A DNA stretch of 64,000 bases from assembly GCF_000384135.1 (NCBI RefSeq), contig NZ_KB913028.1, positions 1,081,351 to 1,145,350 of the forward strand, written 5' to 3'. Below the pieces are notes generated by a model. That model saw only the letters and a list, made by a program, of their open reading frames with translations. It had not been told where the DNA came from and made no database searches. This DNA is from Succinispira mobilis DSM 6222. Lineage in GTDB: Bacteria > Bacillota > Negativicutes > Acidaminococcales > Succinispiraceae. Below, piece after piece: positions 28,261-40,416 of this stretch. The position numbers were made by a program, and so were the translations under genes. The stretch's first letter is position 1; each line of letters starts with the position of its first letter.

Positions 28261-28273
28261 TCGAGGATGGTTG

Positions 28274-29203
28274 ATGATAATGCTTATAAAAGATATAAAT
28301 TTGCCATTGTACCTTCAAGTTAAAAACTATATTGAAACTAAAATTTCAGAAAAAGAGTTTTTGCCAGGACAAAAATTGCCAACCGAAAGAGCTCTTGCGA
28401 AACAATTAGCGGTTAGTCGCAATACTGTAAGTGAAGCATATAAAGAATTGGCATTAGAAGGGATTTTAGTATGTAAAACGGGTCGGGGAACTTTTTTAGC
28501 AGGTGAAAATGCTCCTATAAGCGCAGGAAAAACGCGCATGGATAGACTTGGTAATGTAATAGCTGCGGCTCTAGATCGATCTTTAAAGATGGGTTTTACA
28601 ACGCAGGATTTTATGAGTTTAACTCAAATAAAGATTCGAGAAATTGAGCTGATTAATAGTAGAAAGCGAATTTTAGTATTAGATCAAATGTCAGATTTAG
28701 CCTATGCTTATTCCAAACAACTGGAGCAGTTTTTAGGCTGTTTAGTTGAGTATAATACCCTTGAAGGATTAAATAATATGTCAGAGAATTTGTTAAAAAA
28801 TTATACTAATATTATTGTGCCGCGAAATATTTTTAAAGAGTTTAAAACACAATATCCACGAATTGCCAACAAAAACAATGTTAAAATTGTGGATTGTCAA
28901 TTAAATTTAAAGGATATTTTAGCGATAGCTAAAATAGATATAGATAAAAGCATTATGGTGGTAGCAGAGGATAATAATTTCCAAAGGTTAGTAGAAGAAG
29001 TATTTACAAGTATTGGTATTAATAGCAGATTAATCGCATTTCAAAATATTAATACTTTAAATAATATAAATAATTATGATGTTTACGTAACTTCAAGTCG
29101 CTTAGAAGAACAGGCGCACAGAAAGTTACAAGGTAAACGTGTAATTGTTTTAAACAAAGAAATTGATCAAGGGTCTTTACAAACAATAGTAAATAATTTC
29201 TAA
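28274..29203 (+). CDS. GntR-family regulator with unusual C-terminal domain
   Basis: The 309 aa protein opens with a GntR winged helix: PLYLQVKNYIETKIS, LPTERALAKQLAVSRNTVSEAYKELALEG and GRGTFLAG (about residues 8-80). The remaining 220 aa (RILVLDQMSDLAYAYSKQLE, IIVPRNIFKEFK, SIMVVAEDNNFQRLV) look like alternating alpha/beta folding and match none of the usual FadR, HutC, MocR or YtrA effector domains that I can recognise. ATG 28274 has GAGG 7 nt upstream; ATG 28280 is an alternative. glmS follows at 18 nt. I infer that it controls the methylaspartate pathway. Confidence 0.82.
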   Translation: MIMLIKDINLPLYLQVKNYIETKISEKEFLPGQKLPTERALAKQLAVSRNTVSEAYKELALEGILVCKTGRGTFLAGENAPISAGKTRMDRLGNVIAAALDRSLKMGFTTQDFMSLTQIKIREIELINSRKRILVLDQMSDLAYAYSKQLEQFLGCLVEYNTLEGLNNMSENLLKNYTNIIVPRNIFKEFKTQYPRIANKNNVKIVDCQLNLKDILAIAKIDIDKSIMVVAEDNNFQRLVEEVFTSIGINSRLIAFQNINTLNNINNYDVYVTSSRLEEQAHRKLQGKRVIVLNKEIDQGSLQTIVNNF

Positions 29204-29221: not shown

Positions 29222-29656
29222 ATGAACACAAACAAACCAAAAATCATCCTAGGAGTAATTGGGGCAGACTGTCATGCCGTAGGGAACAAAATCTTAAATT
29301 ATGCATTTAACAATGCAGGTTTTGAAGTTGTTAATTTAGGGGTATTGGTTCCACAACAAGATTTTGTTAATGCGGCTGTAGAAACAAATGCAGTAGCAAT
29401 TTTAGTAGCTTCTTTGTATGGACATGGCGAGATTGATTGTCGCGGTTTGAGAAATAAATGTATAGAAGCAGGTATTGGTGAAATTTTATTATATGTAGGG
29501 GGCAATCTTGTTGTTGGGAAGACTGACTTGAATGCAACTAATGAAAAATTCTTAAATATGGGTTATGATAGAGTCTATGCTCCAGGAACTTTGCCAGATG
29601 AGGTTGTTAATGATTTGAAAAATGATCTTAGAGAGAAGGGAATAAACGTTGAGTAA
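29222..29656 (+). CDS. glmS: Methylaspartate mutase subunit S (B12-binding)
   Basis: Small cobalamin-binding component of glutamate mutase, which converts L-glutamate to threo-3-methylaspartate. The base-off B12 motif is visible: [11 protein letters not shown] (DxHxxG), then [12 protein letters not shown] and [11 protein letters not shown] (GG loop). The 144 aa length is typical. AAGGAGAG precedes the ATG at 29222. The gene overlaps glmL by 8 nt. The name glmS here means the mutase subunit, not glucosamine-6-phosphate synthase. Confidence 0.95.
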
Positions 29657-31037
29657 TTTAAACAACGTTCTTTTGATCGATTTCGGTAGTACCTATACTA
29701 AAATTACTGCGGTAGATATGCAAGAACGCTGTTTATTGGGAACAGCTACAGGATATACTACGGTTAGCACAGATATTATGCAGGGTCTAAATCAGGCTTT
29801 GCACGACTTAGAAAACAATATTGGCAAAGTAGAATTTGATCAAGTTTTAGGTTGTTCTAGTGCTGCAGGCGGTTTAAAAATGGTTGCTATCGGATTAATT
29901 GAAGAGTTAACTGCAGAGGCAGCAAAAAGAGCTGCTCTGGGGGCTGGTGCAAAAGTTCTAGGGGTGTTTTGTGGTGAACTAAGTTCTTTAGAAGTGAAAA
30001 AAATTGCAGAACTACAGCCAGATATTATTTTGTTGGCTGGTGGGACTGATGGTGGTAATAAAGCAGTAATTTTGCATAATGCGCAACTTTTAACCAAGCT
30101 TACAGCGGATATTCCTTTTGTAGTTGCTGGCAATAAATCAGTGGTAGATCAAGTTGCGGAAATATTAGCAGTAAATAAAAGCGAAGTAATTATTAGTGAA
30201 AATGTAATGCCGAAGGTTAATGTTTTAAATATTAATCCAGCGAGAGAAGCAATAAGAAGTATTTTTTTAAAGCGAATTATTCATGCTAAAGGAATTGATA
30301 AAGCCAACGTATTTGTCAATAAATTATTGATGCCTACGCCAGAAGCAGTATTAGTTGCGGCAGAATTATTAAGTGCTGGAACTAATGAGCAAGCTGGCAT
30401 CGGTGAACTACTACTAGTTGATATAGGTGGCGCAACTACAGATGTGTATTCAATGGCAGTTGGAAATCCAACAGGGTCGAATGTAGTTATGCGTGGTTTA
30501 CCAGAACCTTATGCGAAACGCACTGTAGAAGGCGATTTAGGGATGCGCTATAGTGCACAAGCAGTTGTTGATGCAGTGGGGCTGGAAAAAATAGCTAATA
30601 GTGCTAAAGTTAGCATTGCGGAATTGCAAAACTATATTGAGTATATTAGCAAAGAAATTCATGTTTTACCAAAAACAGCGGCAGAAAAAAGAATGGAAAT
30701 AGCCTTAGCTTTCGCTTGTACGCGTGAAGCTGTAAATCGCCATGTAGGGCAATTAGAGCAAGTATTTATGTTAACTGGCAAAGGCTATGTGCAAGTTGGT
30801 AAGGATTTAAGTAAAATTCAGACGGTAATTGGCACTGGTGGAGTTTTGCTGAAAAATTCAGAACCGAAAGAAATACTTAAAGGCGCGCTATATACAGAAC
30901 AAGAAAGTATGTTATTAAAACCTCAGCACGCAAAGTTATTGTTAGATAATGAGTATATTTTAGCTTCAATGGGTTTGCTAGCTCAACTTGATAAAAATAT
31001 AGCTCTAGAAATTATGAAAAATACAATAGTAAAATAA
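29649..31037 (+). CDS. glmL: Methylaspartate mutase accessory protein MutL/GlmL
   Basis: Actin-fold ATPase-like protein thought to act as reactivating factor for glutamate mutase. [16 protein letters not shown] and [15 protein letters not shown] are the two phosphate-binding loops, and [17 protein letters not shown] is family-specific. The 462 aa start at TTG 29649 with GAGAGAAGGG upstream, overlapping glmS by 8 nt. The glmS-glmL-glmE order is that of Clostridium tetanomorphum type clusters. Confidence 0.94.
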
Positions 31038-31069
31038 GTTGAATTGAAAAATATGAGGAGATGTGTATC

Positions 31070-32521
31070 ATGGAATTAAAAAACAAAAAGTTAACAAACG
31101 ATGAGTTTTATACGATACGAAAAGAAATTTTAAATCATTGGCCAACAGGTGCAGAAGTTGATTTTGAGGAAGCTGTTGCTTACCACAAACAAATTCCGGA
31201 TAGTCGTCAATTTGCTAAAGTGTTGCTAAAAGCTAAAAAAGATAAAGTTACTTTGACACAACCACGTGCGGGAGTAGCACTTATCGAAGAACACATTACT
31301 TTGTTAAACTTTTTGAAAACGGAAGGCGAGGCAGATCTTTTACCAACAACTATTGATAGTTATACTCGCCAAAATCAATATGCAGAAGCAGAAAATGGTA
31401 TAAAAGAAAGCAAGGAAGCTGGACGCTCGCTTTTAAATGGTTTTCCAGCAGTAAATCATGGTGTAAAAGGTGTACGTCAAGTTGTTGAAAATGTTAAAGC
31501 ACCATTGCAAGTTCGTCACGGCACACCAGATGCAAGACTACTAACTGAAATAGCCTTAGCTGGCGGATTTACTTCGTATGAAGGTGGCGGTATTAGTTAT
31601 AATATTCCTTATGCTAAAAGTGTTTCTTTGGAAAAAACTATTACTGACTGGCAATACTGTGACCGGGTAATCGGGATGTATGCTGAAGCAGGTATTGAAA
31701 TAAATCGCGAACCATACGGTCCATTAACAGGAACTCTAGTGCCTCCTTGTGTATCGCATGCAGTGGCTATTATTGAAGCTATTTTAGCAGCAGAACAAGG
31801 GGTTAAAAGTTTAACTCTTGGCTATGGTCAATGTGGTAATTTAATTCAAGACATTGCTGCAATAAAATCCTTAGAAGAGCTAGCTGAAGAGTATCTACAA
31901 GCAAATGGATATAATGATTGTACAATTACAACAGTTTTCCATCAATGGATGGGTGGTTTCCCACAAGACGAAGCGAAAGCATTTGCCGTAATTTCTTGGG
32001 GCGCAGCAGCGGCAGCTTTATCTCAAGCAACTAAAGTAATTGTAAAAACTCCACATGAAGCATTAGGCATTCCAACTAAAGAAGCAAACGCAGCAGGGTT
32101 GCGTGCGACAAAACAATTAATCAATATGCTAAGTGACCAACCATTTGGAATGACTCGCGAAGTTGCAGCAGAAGTTGAAATAATTAAAGCCGAAACAAGA
32201 TGTATTTTAAATCGTGTAAAAGAATTAGGCAAAGGTGATTTTGTAGTTGGAACAGTAGCTGCTTTCCAAACGGGCGTATTAGATATTCCATTTGCCCCTA
32301 GTGAAAGAACACTTAATAAAATGTTACCAGCGCGCGATAATAATGGCGCAGTACGGTTCTTTGATGTAGGTAATTTACCATTTAATAAAGATTTACTCGA
32401 TTTCCACAATCAAAAAATTCAAGAACGTGGTCAAGCTGAAGGGCGTACACCAAGTTTCCAAATGGTAATTGATGATATATATGCAGTATCAAAAGGTCGT
32501 TTAGTAGGTAGACCTAACTAG
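31070..32521 (+). CDS. glmE: Methylaspartate mutase subunit E
   Basis: Catalytic TIM-barrel subunit of adenosylcobalamin-dependent glutamate mutase. At 483 aa it is full length and contains [42 protein letters not shown] and [15 protein letters not shown], which line the substrate and cofactor pocket. ATG 31070 has GAGGAG 10 nt upstream; an ATG at 31061 is too close to it. The enzyme commits glutamate to the methylaspartate route. Confidence 0.95.
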
Positions 32522-32594: not shown

Positions 32595-33836
32595 ATGAAA
32601 ATTAAAGACATAGTATGCGCAAAAGGAATGACAGGGTTTTACTTTGATGATCAAAGAGCAATTAAACAAGGAGCTCAACACGACGGCTTCAATTATGTGG
32701 GCGAAAGTGTAACTCCAGGTTTTACAGCTATCCGTCAACCAGGCGAATGTGTTTCTGTGATGTTTGTATTAGAAGATGGACAAGTAGCTTATGGTGATTG
32801 TGCAGCAGTTCAATACAGCGGAGCGGGTGGACGCGATCCTTTGTTTTTAGCGGAAGAATTTATTCCTGTGATTAATGAAAGCATTAAACCATTATTAGTA
32901 GGTCAAGAATTAGATTCTTTTAAACGTTTAGCGAATATTATAGATACTTTAACTGTAGCGGGTAGTGATAAACTTATTCATACCGCATTAAGATATGGGA
33001 TAACTCAAGGTATTTTAGATGCAGTAGCTAAAGCACAAGGAAAATTAATGTGTGAAGTTGTAGCTAGTGAATACGGTACAGAAGTAAGCACTAAAGAAAT
33101 CGCGATTTTTACACAATCTGGTGATGACCGTTATAATAATGTTGATAAAATGATAATTAAACAAGCTGCAGTTTTGCCACATGCTCTAATTAACAATGTA
33201 AAAGAAAAATTAGGCGAAAACGGCGAGTTGTTACTTGAATATGTAACTTGGTTGAAAAATAGAATTGTTAGTATGAGCAAACGTGCCGAATATCCAGTGT
33301 TGCATATTGATGTTTATGGAACAATTGGTTTAGCATTTAATAATGATGTTGAAAAAATGGCGAATTATTTAGCGCAACTAGAAAAAGCTGCTAGTCCTTT
33401 GAAACTTAGAATTGAAGGACCGATGGATGTAGAAGATCGTGAATTGCAAATTGAAGCTTTGGCGACATTAACCAAAAAACTTCATGCAGATAATATCAAA
33501 GTAGAACTAGTAGCAGACGAGTGGTGCAACACTTTAGAAGATATTAAACTATTTGCGGATGCTGGTGCTGGAGATATGATTCAAATAAAAACTCCAGACT
33601 TAGGCGGCATCAATAATATCGTAGAAGCAGTGTTATATTGTAAAGCTAAAGGGGTAGGTGCTTACCAAGGTGGGACTTGTAATGAAACAGATCGCTCAGC
33701 ACAAGTATGTGTACATTTAGCCATGGCGACTAGTCCAGACCAAATTTTAGCGAAACCAGGTATGGGTGTAGATGAAGGTTATATGATCGTTTATAATGAA
33801 ATGCAAAGAATTTTAGCTTTAAGAGCGAGCAAATAA
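32595..33836 (+). CDS. mal: Methylaspartate ammonia-lyase
   Basis: Enolase-superfamily enzyme converting threo-3-methylaspartate to mesaconate and ammonia. The 413 aa protein shows GVTPGFTAIRQPGE near residue 40, the metal-ligand region YPVLHIDVYGTIGLAF, IEGPMD, VELVADEWCNTLEDI and catalytic Lys in MIQIKTPDLGGINN, then GAYQGGTCNETDRS. It is 73 nt after glmE with a good AAGGAATAGG site, and 1 nt before the P-loop gene. Confidence 0.95.
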   Translation: MKIKDIVCAKGMTGFYFDDQRAIKQGAQHDGFNYVGESVTPGFTAIRQPGECVSVMFVLEDGQVAYGDCAAVQYSGAGGRDPLFLAEEFIPVINESIKPLLVGQELDSFKRLANIIDTLTVAGSDKLIHTALRYGITQGILDAVAKAQGKLMCEVVASEYGTEVSTKEIAIFTQSGDDRYNNVDKMIIKQAAVLPHALINNVKEKLGENGELLLEYVTWLKNRIVSMSKRAEYPVLHIDVYGTIGLAFNNDVEKMANYLAQLEKAASPLKLRIEGPMDVEDRELQIEALATLTKKLHADNIKVELVADEWCNTLEDIKLFADAGAGDMIQIKTPDLGGINNIVEAVLYCKAKGVGAYQGGTCNETDRSAQVCVHLAMATSPDQILAKPGMGVDEGYMIVYNEMQRILALRASK

Positions 33837-33837
33837 A

Positions 33838-34755
33838 ATGGGACTGTATCTAACCGACCAACTTATGTATGCCAGTTATTTTGCCCCGCGCGGAAGACAA
33901 AGGATGTTTTTACTAGGTCAACAACTTAGCCAAAGATATCTATCGCCTAATGATTTACTAATTGGAATAATTGGCGAATCTGGAGCCGGGAAATCTTCAA
34001 TGATTAAAGGAATGTTTCCTGGATTAGAATTAACTAACGATGATGACGGCGTAAATATTCGCCCCTTACCACTTCTGAAAGATGAAAAAAGCAGTTTTTT
34101 TAATCCGCATACTTATCATGTTGATATGCGTTTTGAGCTTGCTTTTACACAAATTTATGAACTGGCAGAAGCGATAAAGCGGAAAATCAAACAGGGTAAA
34201 AGAGTAATAGTGGAACATTTTGAGTTGCTTTATCCAGCGCTATTTAGAAATGCGGATATTTTAATTGGGGTTGGTGCAGAAGTAATGTTGGTTAAACCAA
34301 CATTGTTTGGTCCGGATCCTAATTTGCTGGCGAGTCTAGTTAAAAAGAATTTGAAATACCGCAAAATGGCACATTCTGCTGAAGATGTTACAGAGGAAGT
34401 GCTCCGCATCGAATATAATATTGATTTAGAATATGGACATCGTGATGTGCGCAAGGGATTTGTGTTAGAGTTAAAAGAAAAGCCTGAGATAAATTTGCGG
34501 GAACTAGAAGAAAAGGTTAAAAAATATATGCAAGAAGGTTTAGGAATTTCTTATGTAGATGATTCACATATAAAAATAGGGAATAATGTTAGTATTTGTA
34601 CTGGTCCCAGATTACATGTGAAAAATACTAGTGAGATTGAAAACTTTAGACTTTCTAAGGACTTTATTTATGATGACAAGAGCAAGACTTATTTATTGGT
34701 TGGATTAGTTGGAAGTGAAGATGAACCTCTATACGGATTGAGTTACACAATTTAA
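33838..34755 (+). CDS. P-loop protein with alanyl-tRNA-synthetase-like (SAD) C-terminal part
   Basis: The 305 aa protein carries Walker A GIIGESGAGKSSMIKG at about residues 43-58. The rest of the nucleoside-kinase-like half includes KRVIVEHFELLYPALF. The C-terminal part has a His pattern (MAHSAEDVTEEVL, then YGHRD) that recalls the second additional domain of alanyl-tRNA synthetase. Proteins with this make-up occur in methylaspartate clusters of Fusobacterium and Clostridium as I remember. Its start is 1 nt from mal, so coexpression is near certain. No reaction is known to me. A role in mutase maintenance, or in handling an aminoacyl or nucleotide derivative, is only a guess. Confidence 0.68.
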   Translation: MGLYLTDQLMYASYFAPRGRQRMFLLGQQLSQRYLSPNDLLIGIIGESGAGKSSMIKGMFPGLELTNDDDGVNIRPLPLLKDEKSSFFNPHTYHVDMRFELAFTQIYELAEAIKRKIKQGKRVIVEHFELLYPALFRNADILIGVGAEVMLVKPTLFGPDPNLLASLVKKNLKYRKMAHSAEDVTEEVLRIEYNIDLEYGHRDVRKGFVLELKEKPEINLRELEEKVKKYMQEGLGISYVDDSHIKIGNNVSICTGPRLHVKNTSEIENFRLSKDFIYDDKSKTYLLVGLVGSEDEPLYGLSYTI

Positions 34756-34757
34756 TA

Positions 34758-34787
34758 AATGACGGACGGATAATTCCGTCCGTCATT
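34758..34787 (+). terminator. Strong intercistronic hairpin
   Basis: AATGACGGACGGA (34758-34770) and TCCGTCCGTCATT (34775-34787) make a perfect 13-bp stem with a TAAT loop. No U tract follows (GTTATAAAGG, which holds the citC ribosome binding site). It may attenuate, protect mRNA ends or only weakly terminate. Confidence 0.6.
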
Positions 34788-34807
34788 GTTATAAAGGTGG
34801 AGATATT

Positions 34808-35812
34808 ATGCTAAACTGTCAATTGATTACACTTAATACTAAAAAAAACTATGAAAAAAAAGCAGTTGAAAATTTTTTGCAAAAATTTTCTTTGAGTTTT
34901 GACGAAACCGTCGATTATACGGTAGGACTATATTTAGAAGAAAAATTAATTGGGGTAGGCTCCACAAAAGAAAATATTATTAGAAATTTGGCAATAGAAG
35001 ATCAGTATCAAGGCGAAGGATTATTAGCTAAATTGGTGCAACACTTGTTAGATTATTTATTTGCTCAAAAAATATATTCAGTAAGTGTTTTTACGAAAAC
35101 CAGTAATATACAACTTTTTGAAAATCTGGGGTTTAAATTGTTAGCAAGAGTAGAACAAGCAAGTATGCTTGAATATAGTATTGACGAAAATAATCTAACT
35201 AATTTTTTGGTGAAAATGACTGAATTTGCACAAATATTACCTAAAGGATCAAGAGCAGGTATTGTGATGAATGCTAATCCTTTTACTTTAGGGCATCTGT
35301 ATTTAGTAGAATTGGCAAGTCGCGAAAATGACGTAGTAATAGTAATGGTTGTAGAAGAGGACAAGGCTAAATTTTCTTTTAGTGAAAGAATTGAATTGGT
35401 AAGACAAGGAACTGCTCACTTAAATAATGTATGGGTAATTCCAAGTGGTAAATATGTTGTGTCTTCCAAAACTTTTCCAGCATATTTTACTAAAGGCATG
35501 GAAACTATTGAGGCTCAAACGAGACTAGATGCGACATTGTTCGCAGAGAAAATTGCACCTTGTCTAAAGATAAACATTAGATATGTTGGCGAAGAACCAT
35601 ATTGCCCGATTACAAATCATTACAATAAGGTTTTACAGGAAATTTTACCTAAAAATAATGTCGTGGTAAAAATCGTTTCTCGCAAAGAAGTCGAAACGCT
35701 TGGATATATTAGTGCTTCAAAAGTGCGTGATTTTTTAGAAAAAAAAGAATTTGCTAAATTAAAAACATTAGTGCCGAAAAGCACTTGGGAATATTTACAA
35801 AAATATAAATAA
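34808..35812 (+). CDS. citC: [Citrate/citramalate lyase] ligase
   Basis: Acetylates the phosphoribosyl-dephospho-CoA group of the lyase acyl carrier protein, switching the lyase on. The 334 aa protein has an N-terminal GNAT-like part (NLAIEDQYQGEGLLAKLVQH) and a nucleotidyltransferase part with NANPFTLGHLYLVE and ISASKVRDFLEKK. No citDEF genes are present. In a methylaspartate pathway the natural partner is citramalate lyase, a citrate lyase homologue, so that is the likelier target. This is inference from context. Confidence 0.9.
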   Translation: MLNCQLITLNTKKNYEKKAVENFLQKFSLSFDETVDYTVGLYLEEKLIGVGSTKENIIRNLAIEDQYQGEGLLAKLVQHLLDYLFAQKIYSVSVFTKTSNIQLFENLGFKLLARVEQASMLEYSIDENNLTNFLVKMTEFAQILPKGSRAGIVMNANPFTLGHLYLVELASRENDVVIVMVVEEDKAKFSFSERIELVRQGTAHLNNVWVIPSGKYVVSSKTFPAYFTKGMETIEAQTRLDATLFAEKIAPCLKINIRYVGEEPYCPITNHYNKVLQEILPKNNVVVKIVSRKEVETLGYISASKVRDFLEKKEFAKLKTLVPKSTWEYLQKYK

Positions 35813-38863: not shown

Positions 38864-38940
38864 CGGGGCGTGGCTCAGCTTGGTAGAGCACCTGTCTTGG
38901 GAACAGGGGGTCGCAGGTTCAAATCCTGCCGCTCCGACCA
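38864..38940 (+). tRNA. tRNA-Pro (anticodon TGG)
   Basis: A 77-nt cloverleaf: acceptor CGGGGCG/CGCTCCG, anticodon stem CCTGT/ACAGG with loop CTTGGGA, T arm GCAGG/CCTGC with TTCAAAT. CCA is encoded. Confidence 0.96.
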
Positions 38941-38952
38941 GTAATTACATAA

Positions 38953-39026
38953 GCGGGTGTAGCTCAATGGTAGAGTTCTAGCCTTCCAAGCTAGCTGCGT
39001 GGGTTCGATCCCCATCACCCGCTCCA
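38953..39026 (+). tRNA. tRNA-Gly (anticodon TCC)
   Basis: A 74-nt cloverleaf: acceptor GCGGGTG/CACCCGC, anticodon stem CTAGC/GCTAG with loop CTTCCAA, T loop TTCGATC. CCA is encoded. It is 12 nt after tRNA-Pro. Confidence 0.96.
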
Positions 39027-39040
39027 TTTTTTTTCTTCGA

Positions 39041-39117
<77 letters not shown>

Positions 39118-39331: not shown

Positions 39332-40280
39332 GAAGAAGCAATGAATAATAATCTATTGCGGAAACGATTGAAATTTTTAAGACTAAAAGAAACACGTGTT
39401 AGTACTTTAGCACTATTGTTACAACCTTCAGTATAACCATTAGTGAAGCTAGTATTTAAAGCAGCAATAATTTCGTTTTTCCAAGAATAAATGGTATCGA
39501 CAAGTTTACTAAATTTATCAATTCCTGACTGTTTAGCTTTTTCGTACCAGATTAAAAGGTTTTTTAAAATATCTTTGCTACTAATAGCATTATGAAACAA
39601 TTCTTATTAGGAAAACAAGTTTTAGCTAAACGTCTAAATAAAGTGCTCATATCCATGACAATATAAGCAACTTTATCTCGCTCTGCTTTTGAGAAACTCA
39701 TAAAATATTGATATAAATCTTCAACTTTTCTATTGTGCAAAATATCAAGAGTTTGTTTTTTGGCAACGTCCGTAATAATACACTGATATTTTTCATGATC
39801 TGTATTTCCTTTGAATTCGTCAATAGCAAGGACTTTAGGTAGTTGGGCTTTAGGATAACTAATTAAATTTGCCTTACGTATAACAGTAGTATTTGAGCAA
39901 CCTAATTCAGAAGCAATACTTGTATAAGAGCGCATTTCGGCTAACTTAGATATGATGTGTTGTGTGAATCTATCAGTCATGCGCTGATATTTTGTTATAA
40001 AATTATTGTTTTCATAAAAAGCTTTATTGCAAGAAGAACAAAAATAGCGACGTTTTCTTAAAAGCAGATAGGTTTTTTGCATAAATGCAGGCAAATCCTT
40101 AATTTTTTGGAATCTATAATTGTTAATTCTAGTAGTTATTGAAGCACAATAAGGGCAGATATGTGGCTTTTTAGGCAATTCTATGAAAATTAAAGTTTCA
40201 TTTAAATTTCTTTGAACTTTTGTTATAATGACATCTTCCAGTCCGAGTAATTTTTGTGTATAATTATCTGTACTGAGCAT
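39322..40280 (-). pseudogene. ISL3-family transposase, internally deleted
   Basis: From ATG 40280 the frame reads MLSTDNYTQKLLGLEDVIIT, a zinc-finger part (CPYCASITTRINNY, then RYFCSSCNKAFYE), an HTH (YTSIASELGCSNTTVIRKA) and the first catalytic block VLAIDEFKG with VAYIVMDMSTLFRRLAKTCF. It then breaks near 39600. A second frame (39600-39322) supplies the C-terminal end DILKNLLIWYEKAKQSGI and GYTEGCNNSAKVL. Roughly 100 aa of the catalytic middle is missing relative to the usual ~400 aa, plus a frame change. GGAGG lies 11 nt before the ATG. Confidence 0.82.
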
Positions 40281-40416
40281 GATTTGAAAATCCTCCTTTG
40301 ATTTGTTTCGCAACTTTATCATAAAGGATTTTTCAATATCACAACATATTTTTTTATAAAAAATATGTTGTGATATGCAGAAATTTTCCACACACCACAA
40401 CATATATTATAGAGCC
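39322..40416 (-). mobile_element. Deleted ISL3-family insertion sequence
   Basis: The right end reads, on the minus strand from 40416, GGCTCTATAATATATGTTGT, a typical ISL3-type terminal repeat beginning GGCTCT. It is followed by a transposase gene running left. No matching GGCTCT end is found to the left of 39322, so the left repeat is lost. Inside the right end, ACAACATAT occurs at 40341 and 40397, with its inverse at 40363. The first two form a hairpin of about 16 bp (40337-40375). The element is immobile on its own. Confidence 0.8.

Follow-up and report, generated by a model that had tools for sequence, protein, structure and literature searches.

A gene at the end of the glutamate mutase operon of Succinispira mobilis encodes a protein in which a TsaE-type ATPase is fused to a ThrRS/AlaX-type deacylase-like domain

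Gene organization of the locus

The stretch of DNA analyzed in the present study, hereafter the window, comprises 64,000 nucleotides of Succinispira mobilis DSM 6222 (contig NZ_KB913028.1, positions 1,081,351 to 1,145,350) and carries a glutamate mutase (glm) operon on its plus strand, on which the genes from the GntR regulator to X, the parts of X, and the hairpin located below are also situated. A gene for a GntR-family regulator (28271..29203; Pfam GntR, 3.8e-20) lies 5' of glmS (mutS), which encodes the B12-binding subunit of glutamate mutase (29222..29656; NCBIfam NF002612, 3.4e-64). It is followed by glmL (mutL) for the mutase accessory protein (29649..31037; NF040745, 1.3e-188), glmE (mutE) for the catalytic barrel subunit of the mutase (31061..32521; TIGR01503, 4.5e-237), and mal for methylaspartate ammonia-lyase (32595..33836; TIGR01502, 1.4e-177). 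The next gene, designated X in the present study (33838..34755), starts with an ATG codon and encodes a protein of 305 aa, and was delineated from its open reading frame, an alignment of 59 sequences, and an AlphaFold model. The stop codon of mal occupies 33834-33836 and, thus, only 1 nt separates the two genes, as an earlier sequence-only reading of this DNA had stated.

A terminator scan placed a terminator-like hairpin at the end of X (34753..34791; MFE -23.8 kcal/mol, z -6.4), with a core stem of 11 bp (34760-34785) ahead of a citC-like gene. Since this strong hairpin immediately follows X, the glm transcript is probably glmS-glmL-glmE-mal-X, with X as its final gene. A search with Rfam revealed no riboswitch near the glm operon, only tRNAs.

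The citC-like gene for a citrate-lyase ligase (34808-35812) has no adjoining citD, citE, or citF, whereas in Sporomusa and Pelosinus, X and citC are separated by three genes with sizes matching those of citD, citE, and citF; it is possible that these genes were lost or relocated in the genome of the window. Further downstream, three tRNA genes are clustered at 38864-39114, after which an apparently truncated transposase-like open reading frame is found on the minus strand (39564-40403).

Protein family and domain architecture

No family in Pfam or NCBIfam covers the X protein, either for the window protein or for the 59-sequence set, and two relatives, WP_004367803.1 from Prevotella nigrescens and WP_025436946.1 from Peptoclostridium acidaminophilum, are both annotated as 'hypothetical protein', which agrees with the previous description of X as uncharacterized. 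The 58 relatives share 50-64% identity with the window protein, and the full-length alignment of the 59 sequences contains approximately 50 invariant residues, both motifs among them. A confident AlphaFold model built on these sequences (pLDDT 88.2, pTM 0.83) was compared with PDB structures using Foldseek, and the best matches were TsaE/YjeE for the first half and the editing domains of AlaX and ThrRS for the second. Sequence searches of the PDB with X only returned P-loop noise, and a search of the viral structures in BFVD yielded no match at E<0.001. Comparisons of sequences and structures demonstrate that X joins a TsaE-type ATPase to a ThrRS/AlaX-type deacylase-like domain. The protein seems to unite two parts, neither of which is in its strict or canonical form. 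We found no earlier description of a fusion between TsaE and an editing domain in a search of mainly open-access literature, and literature on TsaE with glutamate mutase or with AlaX yielded nothing relevant.

Regarding variants of the gene, X is tandemly duplicated in two genomes of the family f41 (L190:17994-19810 and L191:8177-10089), with most motifs being kept in both copies; one copy in L191 has CGGPKIH in place of CTGPRIH. The X locus of L198 is apparently frame-shifted, and a translation of L143 in a wrong frame was disregarded.

The TsaE-like ATPase half

TsaE (YjeE) is the ATPase of bacterial tRNA t6A synthesis. The domain resembling it in X spans approximately residues 14-160 (33877..34317) and was recognized with both hhalign and Foldseek. 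The clear Walker A motif noted in the sequence-only reading is GESGAGKS at residues 46-53 (33973..33996), in which G46, G49, G51, K52, and S53 are invariant among the 59 sequences and fit the TsaE pattern GxxGxGK[ST]. The segment H94-x-D96-x-R98-F-E100 (34117..34137), with H94, D96, R98, F99, and E100 all invariant, aligns with the HFDxYR region of TsaE, and E126-H127-F128 (34213..34221) aligns with its IEW. When the first half of X was compared with 20 TsaE sequences by hhalign, an E-value of 1.7e-7 was obtained (probability 93.9, 106 columns), whereas the controls gave 0.0011 for this half against the uridine kinase part of the nucleoside kinase L135 (see below) and 0.29 for the second half against TsaE. 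The isolated domain was modeled with a pLDDT of 87.5, and its six Foldseek matches in the PDB at E<1e-3 were all TsaE/YjeE (TM 0.53-0.58). We had by eye matched DDDG and EHF in the P-loop half to uridine kinase, and dropped this kinase reading because of the difference between the two hhalign values and because the structure search returned only TsaE at this threshold. The comparison with kinases and with AlaX/AlaRS that had been proposed for X recovered the AlaX/ThrRS editing fold in one half and a TsaE-like, not kinase-like, P-loop in the other.

The likeness to TsaE/YjeE (PF02367, TIGR00150) extends over the profile of the whole domain, the fold, and the Walker A and H-x-D motifs, but the X family differs in a number of respects. 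Matches to TsaE at E<0.01 were obtained for 7 of the 59 X sequences with Pfam and 9 with NCBIfam, and even the best homologue remained below the curated cut-off (24.7 versus 26.6 bits). In TsaE, E108 binds Mg and W109 is a switch residue (PMC4330362); E126, which is invariant, occupies the position of the former in X, while an invariant H127 is found at that of the latter. Another switch residue of TsaE, Y82, is not retained, and a second domain is fused to the ATPase. With the Walker A motif and a Glu at the Mg-binding position retained and Y82 and W109 lost, the conserved residues suggest that X likely binds ATP, and that the partner to which its ATPase half is coupled is probably different from that of TsaE. 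A canonical TsaE is separately encoded in the genome of the window (111 bits) and, thus, X is not the TsaE of t6A synthesis. These three features, namely, the score below the cut-off, the loss of the switch residues, and the separate TsaE, set X apart from a strict TsaE.

The editing-like half

The second half of X contains a SAD-type editing-like domain at approximately residues 161-292 (34318..34713), identified by hhalign and Foldseek. The C-terminal resemblance to the second additional domain of AlaRS, which had been suggested from the sequence alone, is real and survived profile searches: over approximately 95 columns, hhalign gave an E-value of 1.9e-6 against ThrRS (probability 90) and 7e-6 against AlaRS (probability 84), and the first half, used as a negative control, gave 0.04 and 0.015, respectively. 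Foldseek matched X to the AlaX-like structures 3kew (3.8e-4) and 2e1b (4e-4) and to ThrRS 1tje (8.8e-3), the fold of which is shared by this half, and also to 1nyq. On its own, the window protein scored below the threshold against Pfam tRNA_SAD (18.8 bits versus a cut-off of 24), a family that was matched by 21 of the 59 relatives; one relative exceeded the cut-off (24.9 bits).

The profile similarity to the ThrRS N2, AlaX, and AlaRS SAD domains (PF07973) runs across the His-motif helix, the GFxxxF hairpin, and the Cys-His loop. H179-S-A-E-D183 (34372..34386) aligns with HSTAH of ThrRS/AlaRS, and C254-T-G-P-R-L-H260 (34597..34617) with CxGPHV of ThrRS, with an insertion of two residues; in the X family, these motifs have become HTAED, the form present in most relatives (HSAED in the window protein), and CTGPRxHV. 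H179, E182, C254, G256, R258, and H260 are invariant among the 59 sequences, and D183 is conserved in at least 90%. The canonical HxxxH zinc half-site is replaced by HxxxD, and the spacing of C254 and H260 is Cx5H instead of CxxxH. Because of this altered metal motif, the domain cannot be regarded as a canonical editing domain. It also differs from its relatives in that it lacks the middle insertion of ThrRS and in its position behind an ATPase, with no synthetase or known tRNA-binding part. A nucleoside kinase of the TGS-SAD-uridine-kinase type (L135, G203) similarly combines a SAD-like segment and a P-loop in one chain, but has the opposite domain order, a TGS-like start, and a P-loop of another family (hhalign approximately 0.001).

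Distribution and association with GlmE

Among 398 genomes drawn evenly from the phylum, X was detected in 72 genomes from 33 families and a strong match to the GlmE family in 86, and 71 genomes had both (Fisher p 2.5e-62, with genomes being treated as unrelated). X and GlmE were less than 20 kb apart on the same strand in 66 of the 72 carriers, and the sole carrier with no GlmE match, G260, is a genome that is 63% complete. In a second set of 27 genomes, which were mostly selected for X being away from glm, GlmE was encoded elsewhere in 26, including all seven Desulfosporosinus records. A MAG named Elusimicrobia (L104), considered as a possible exception with X but not GlmE, was uninformative, with X starting 280 nt from the contig end. 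The homologues are not scattered, and X tracks the GlmE family across genomes.

X also occurs outside the phylum; in Prevotella nigrescens (Bacteroidota), the gene order is glmS-glmL-glmE-mal-atuA-DUF4387-X-fumA-fumB, and X is present in MAGs named Leptolinea, Firestonebacteria, and Elusimicrobia. Both X and GlmE were absent from the 13 other genomes of the window's class in the draw; the closest relatives of the window protein are found in Negativicutes such as Sporomusa and Pelosinus, which are outside the class listing of the draw. GlmE was found without X in 15 genomes of the draw, 10 of which have mal, and chromosome-sized Escherichia coli records with glmE contained no X, indicating that the pathway does not require X.

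Conversely, mal was missing from 10 X carriers of the even draw, and a strict dependence of X on mal or methylaspartate was rejected on this basis. One family, f24, represented by six genomes, lacks mal, glmS, and glmL, and its GlmE-like protein is degenerate, as the RHGTx[14 protein letters not shown] and KTPHE motifs have disappeared from it. The production of methylaspartate by the mutase route is not expected in this lineage, and the sequence of its GlmE homologue suggests a non-mutase role; however, every motif of X is retained in the four sequences that were inspected, and the GlmE-like gene adjoins X. Taken together, the mal-less carriers and f24 indicate that X is partnered with the GlmE family and not with methylaspartate as such. 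Accordingly, the previously proposed tie to methylaspartate metabolism holds for GlmE (71 of 72 carriers), but not strictly for methylaspartate.

This pattern raises the possibility, which we consider to be real though clearly short of even, that X is an ATP-driven accessory factor that resets, loads, or regulates a GlmE-type barrel enzyme or GlmL, with the SAD domain as a ligand-binding or docking module. GlmE, and not mal, glmS, or glmL, is the only near-constant partner of X, and adjoins it in f24 even after the loss of its catalytic motifs, while L145 (G091) retains only the TsaE-like half of X beside a GlmE-like gene. The distance matrix of X correlated best with that of GlmE (0.930), with GlmL being nearly equal (0.927). 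The actin/Hsp70-like ATPase fold class includes TsaD as well as GlmL, which is another point in favor of such a factor. Moreover, TsaE reactivates the TsaD-TsaB complex through ATP hydrolysis (PMC11648230), and this resetting makes the possibility credible. On the other hand, GlmL is already known as the accessory protein of the mutase, many glm operons have no X, and the f24 carriers have no GlmL; moreover, an accessory role leaves unexplained the invariant residues of the HxxxD and Cx5H motifs and the adjacency of X to rph described below.

Adjacency to rph

RNase PH, a tRNA 3'-end nuclease, is encoded by rph. X is located directly 5' of this gene at 25 of the 29 loci with the best hits in the even sample, at 13 of 80 loci from a set of genome contigs, and in the majority of the regions examined for f24, f35, and f41, but not in Sporomusa, Pelosinus, or Prevotella. 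In four f24 regions (L138-L141), the degenerate GlmE-like gene is beside X, a GntR regulator, and rph. The truncated X of L145 (11493-11987), which has 165 aa, also adjoins rph.

Since TsaE is a tRNA-modification protein, this arrangement may suggest that X works with RNase PH in the maturation or modification of tRNA and that it is connected to glm solely through an inherited neighborhood. We regard this as improbable, more so than any other explanation considered here, because X accompanies glm away from rph in numerous genomes, including those of Negativicutes and Prevotella, and because X and rph without GlmE would be expected in many genomes if nothing but the neighborhood had been inherited, whereas the only carrier among the 72 with no GlmE is the incomplete genome.

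Neighboring metabolic genes

The genes around X include those of the branch downstream of the mutase in some genomes. The order is citC-X-citX in Peptoclostridium acidaminophilum and X-fumA-fumB in Prevotella and many gut genomes, while X precedes the cit-sized genes in Sporomusa and Pelosinus. These positions are in line with a small-molecule hydrolase or regulator, in which the SAD domain acts on or senses compounds of the mesaconate-citramalate branch (free amino acids, esters, or thioesters) and the ATPase signals. Such a role appears unlikely to us. X is shared by genomes with citramalate lyase and those with the AtuA-DUF4387 pair, leaving no common downstream enzyme, and known SAD-fold proteins act on aminoacyl-tRNA.

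As separate observations on these neighborhoods, genes for AtuA-family (PF07287) and DUF4387 (PF14330) proteins are located directly 3' of mal in many glm operons (for example, L052:6618-8293, L190:3414-5100, and L188:7122-8843). The pair is often found where genes for class I fumarase/mesaconase are not adjacent, although Prevotella and G321 carry both sets, and the two proteins may be an alternative enzyme for mesaconate. In several Clostridia, genes for an HgdD-like protein (D-component of 2-hydroxyglutaryl-CoA dehydratase) and a BadF-type ATPase, often accompanied by metallo-beta-lactamase-fold genes, are inserted between glmE/mal and X/rph (L081:2876-5417, L100, L059, L073, L149, and L150).

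Possible function of X

Among the three roles suggested in the sequence-only reading, namely, the maintenance of the B12 enzyme, a regulatory nucleotide, and aminoacyl editing, we provisionally place the editing of aminoacyl-tRNA first and the maintenance of the mutase second. Our leading, albeit tentative, proposal is that X is an ATP-regulated quality-control hydrolase for aminoacyl-tRNA, which would protect translation from 3-methylaspartate or an amino acid resembling it. The more specific version, in which X is an ATP-coupled trans-editing enzyme of new architecture that keeps the product of the B12 mutase, 3-methylaspartate or a relative, out of the proteins of anaerobic glutamate fermenters, is conceivable but less probable. 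The SAD half would probably bind a metal through H179, D183, C254, and H260, and hydrolyze tRNA mischarged with (2S,3S)-3-methylaspartate, the non-protein product of glutamate mutase. AspRS is not known to have an editing domain and, thus, tRNA-Asp would be the most plausible mischarged tRNA. By binding and hydrolyzing ATP, the TsaE-like half may gate how the charged tRNA is bound or released. In a lineage that lacks the pathway, the substrate would be another amino acid.

The proposal of editing draws on several lines of evidence. The nearest relatives of both domains are tRNA enzymes (TsaE for one, and ThrRS, AlaRS, and AlaX for the other), and the residues with a putative role in catalysis or metal binding vary little or not at all among the 59 sequences and are retained in f24. 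GlmE is present in all but one of the 72 carriers, including Desulfosporosinus in which X is away from glm, and X lies immediately 5' of rph at most of the best-hit loci of the even sample. A functional analogy is provided by CtdA, a stand-alone canavanyl-tRNA-Arg deacylase encoded beside canavanine-degradation genes (PMC10018355), that is, a tRNA-editing protein next to genes for the degradation of a toxic amino acid. However, CtdA is a B3/4 editing-domain protein for which no ATPase domain has been reported (PMC10018355), and the two proteins are, as far as is known, unrelated in sequence. The genome of the window encodes its own TsaE, ThrRS, and AlaRS, and the idea that X replaces a lost copy of one of them was rejected.

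Several points argue against editing. X is intact in f24, which should make no methylaspartate by the mutase route, and, thus, either the substrate is not methylaspartate everywhere or X serves the GlmE protein itself. Another point is the occurrence of GlmE without X in 15 genomes, 10 of them with mal, and in the E. coli records. The metal motif, as read from the alignment, departs from the canonical HxxxH…CxxxH, and the adjacency to rph may be an inherited chromosomal arrangement. We found no report in the literature of methylaspartate being charged to a tRNA or of methylaspartate with aspartyl-tRNA synthetase.

As taught, the classic B12 pathway for the fermentation of glutamate via methylaspartate needs no protein such as X, and the present results add to it an extra, strongly conserved gene, found in 33 families of one phylum as well as in other phyla, both halves of which point to tRNA. 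If X serves GlmE instead of tRNA, it would represent a helper ATPase of a new type for B12 enzymes. If X edits methylaspartyl-tRNA, non-protein amino acids from catabolism would threaten translation more often than is recognized, with ATP being spent to counter them, and ATP-coupled editing by this protein, if true, would provide an unusual example of trans-editing driven by ATP.
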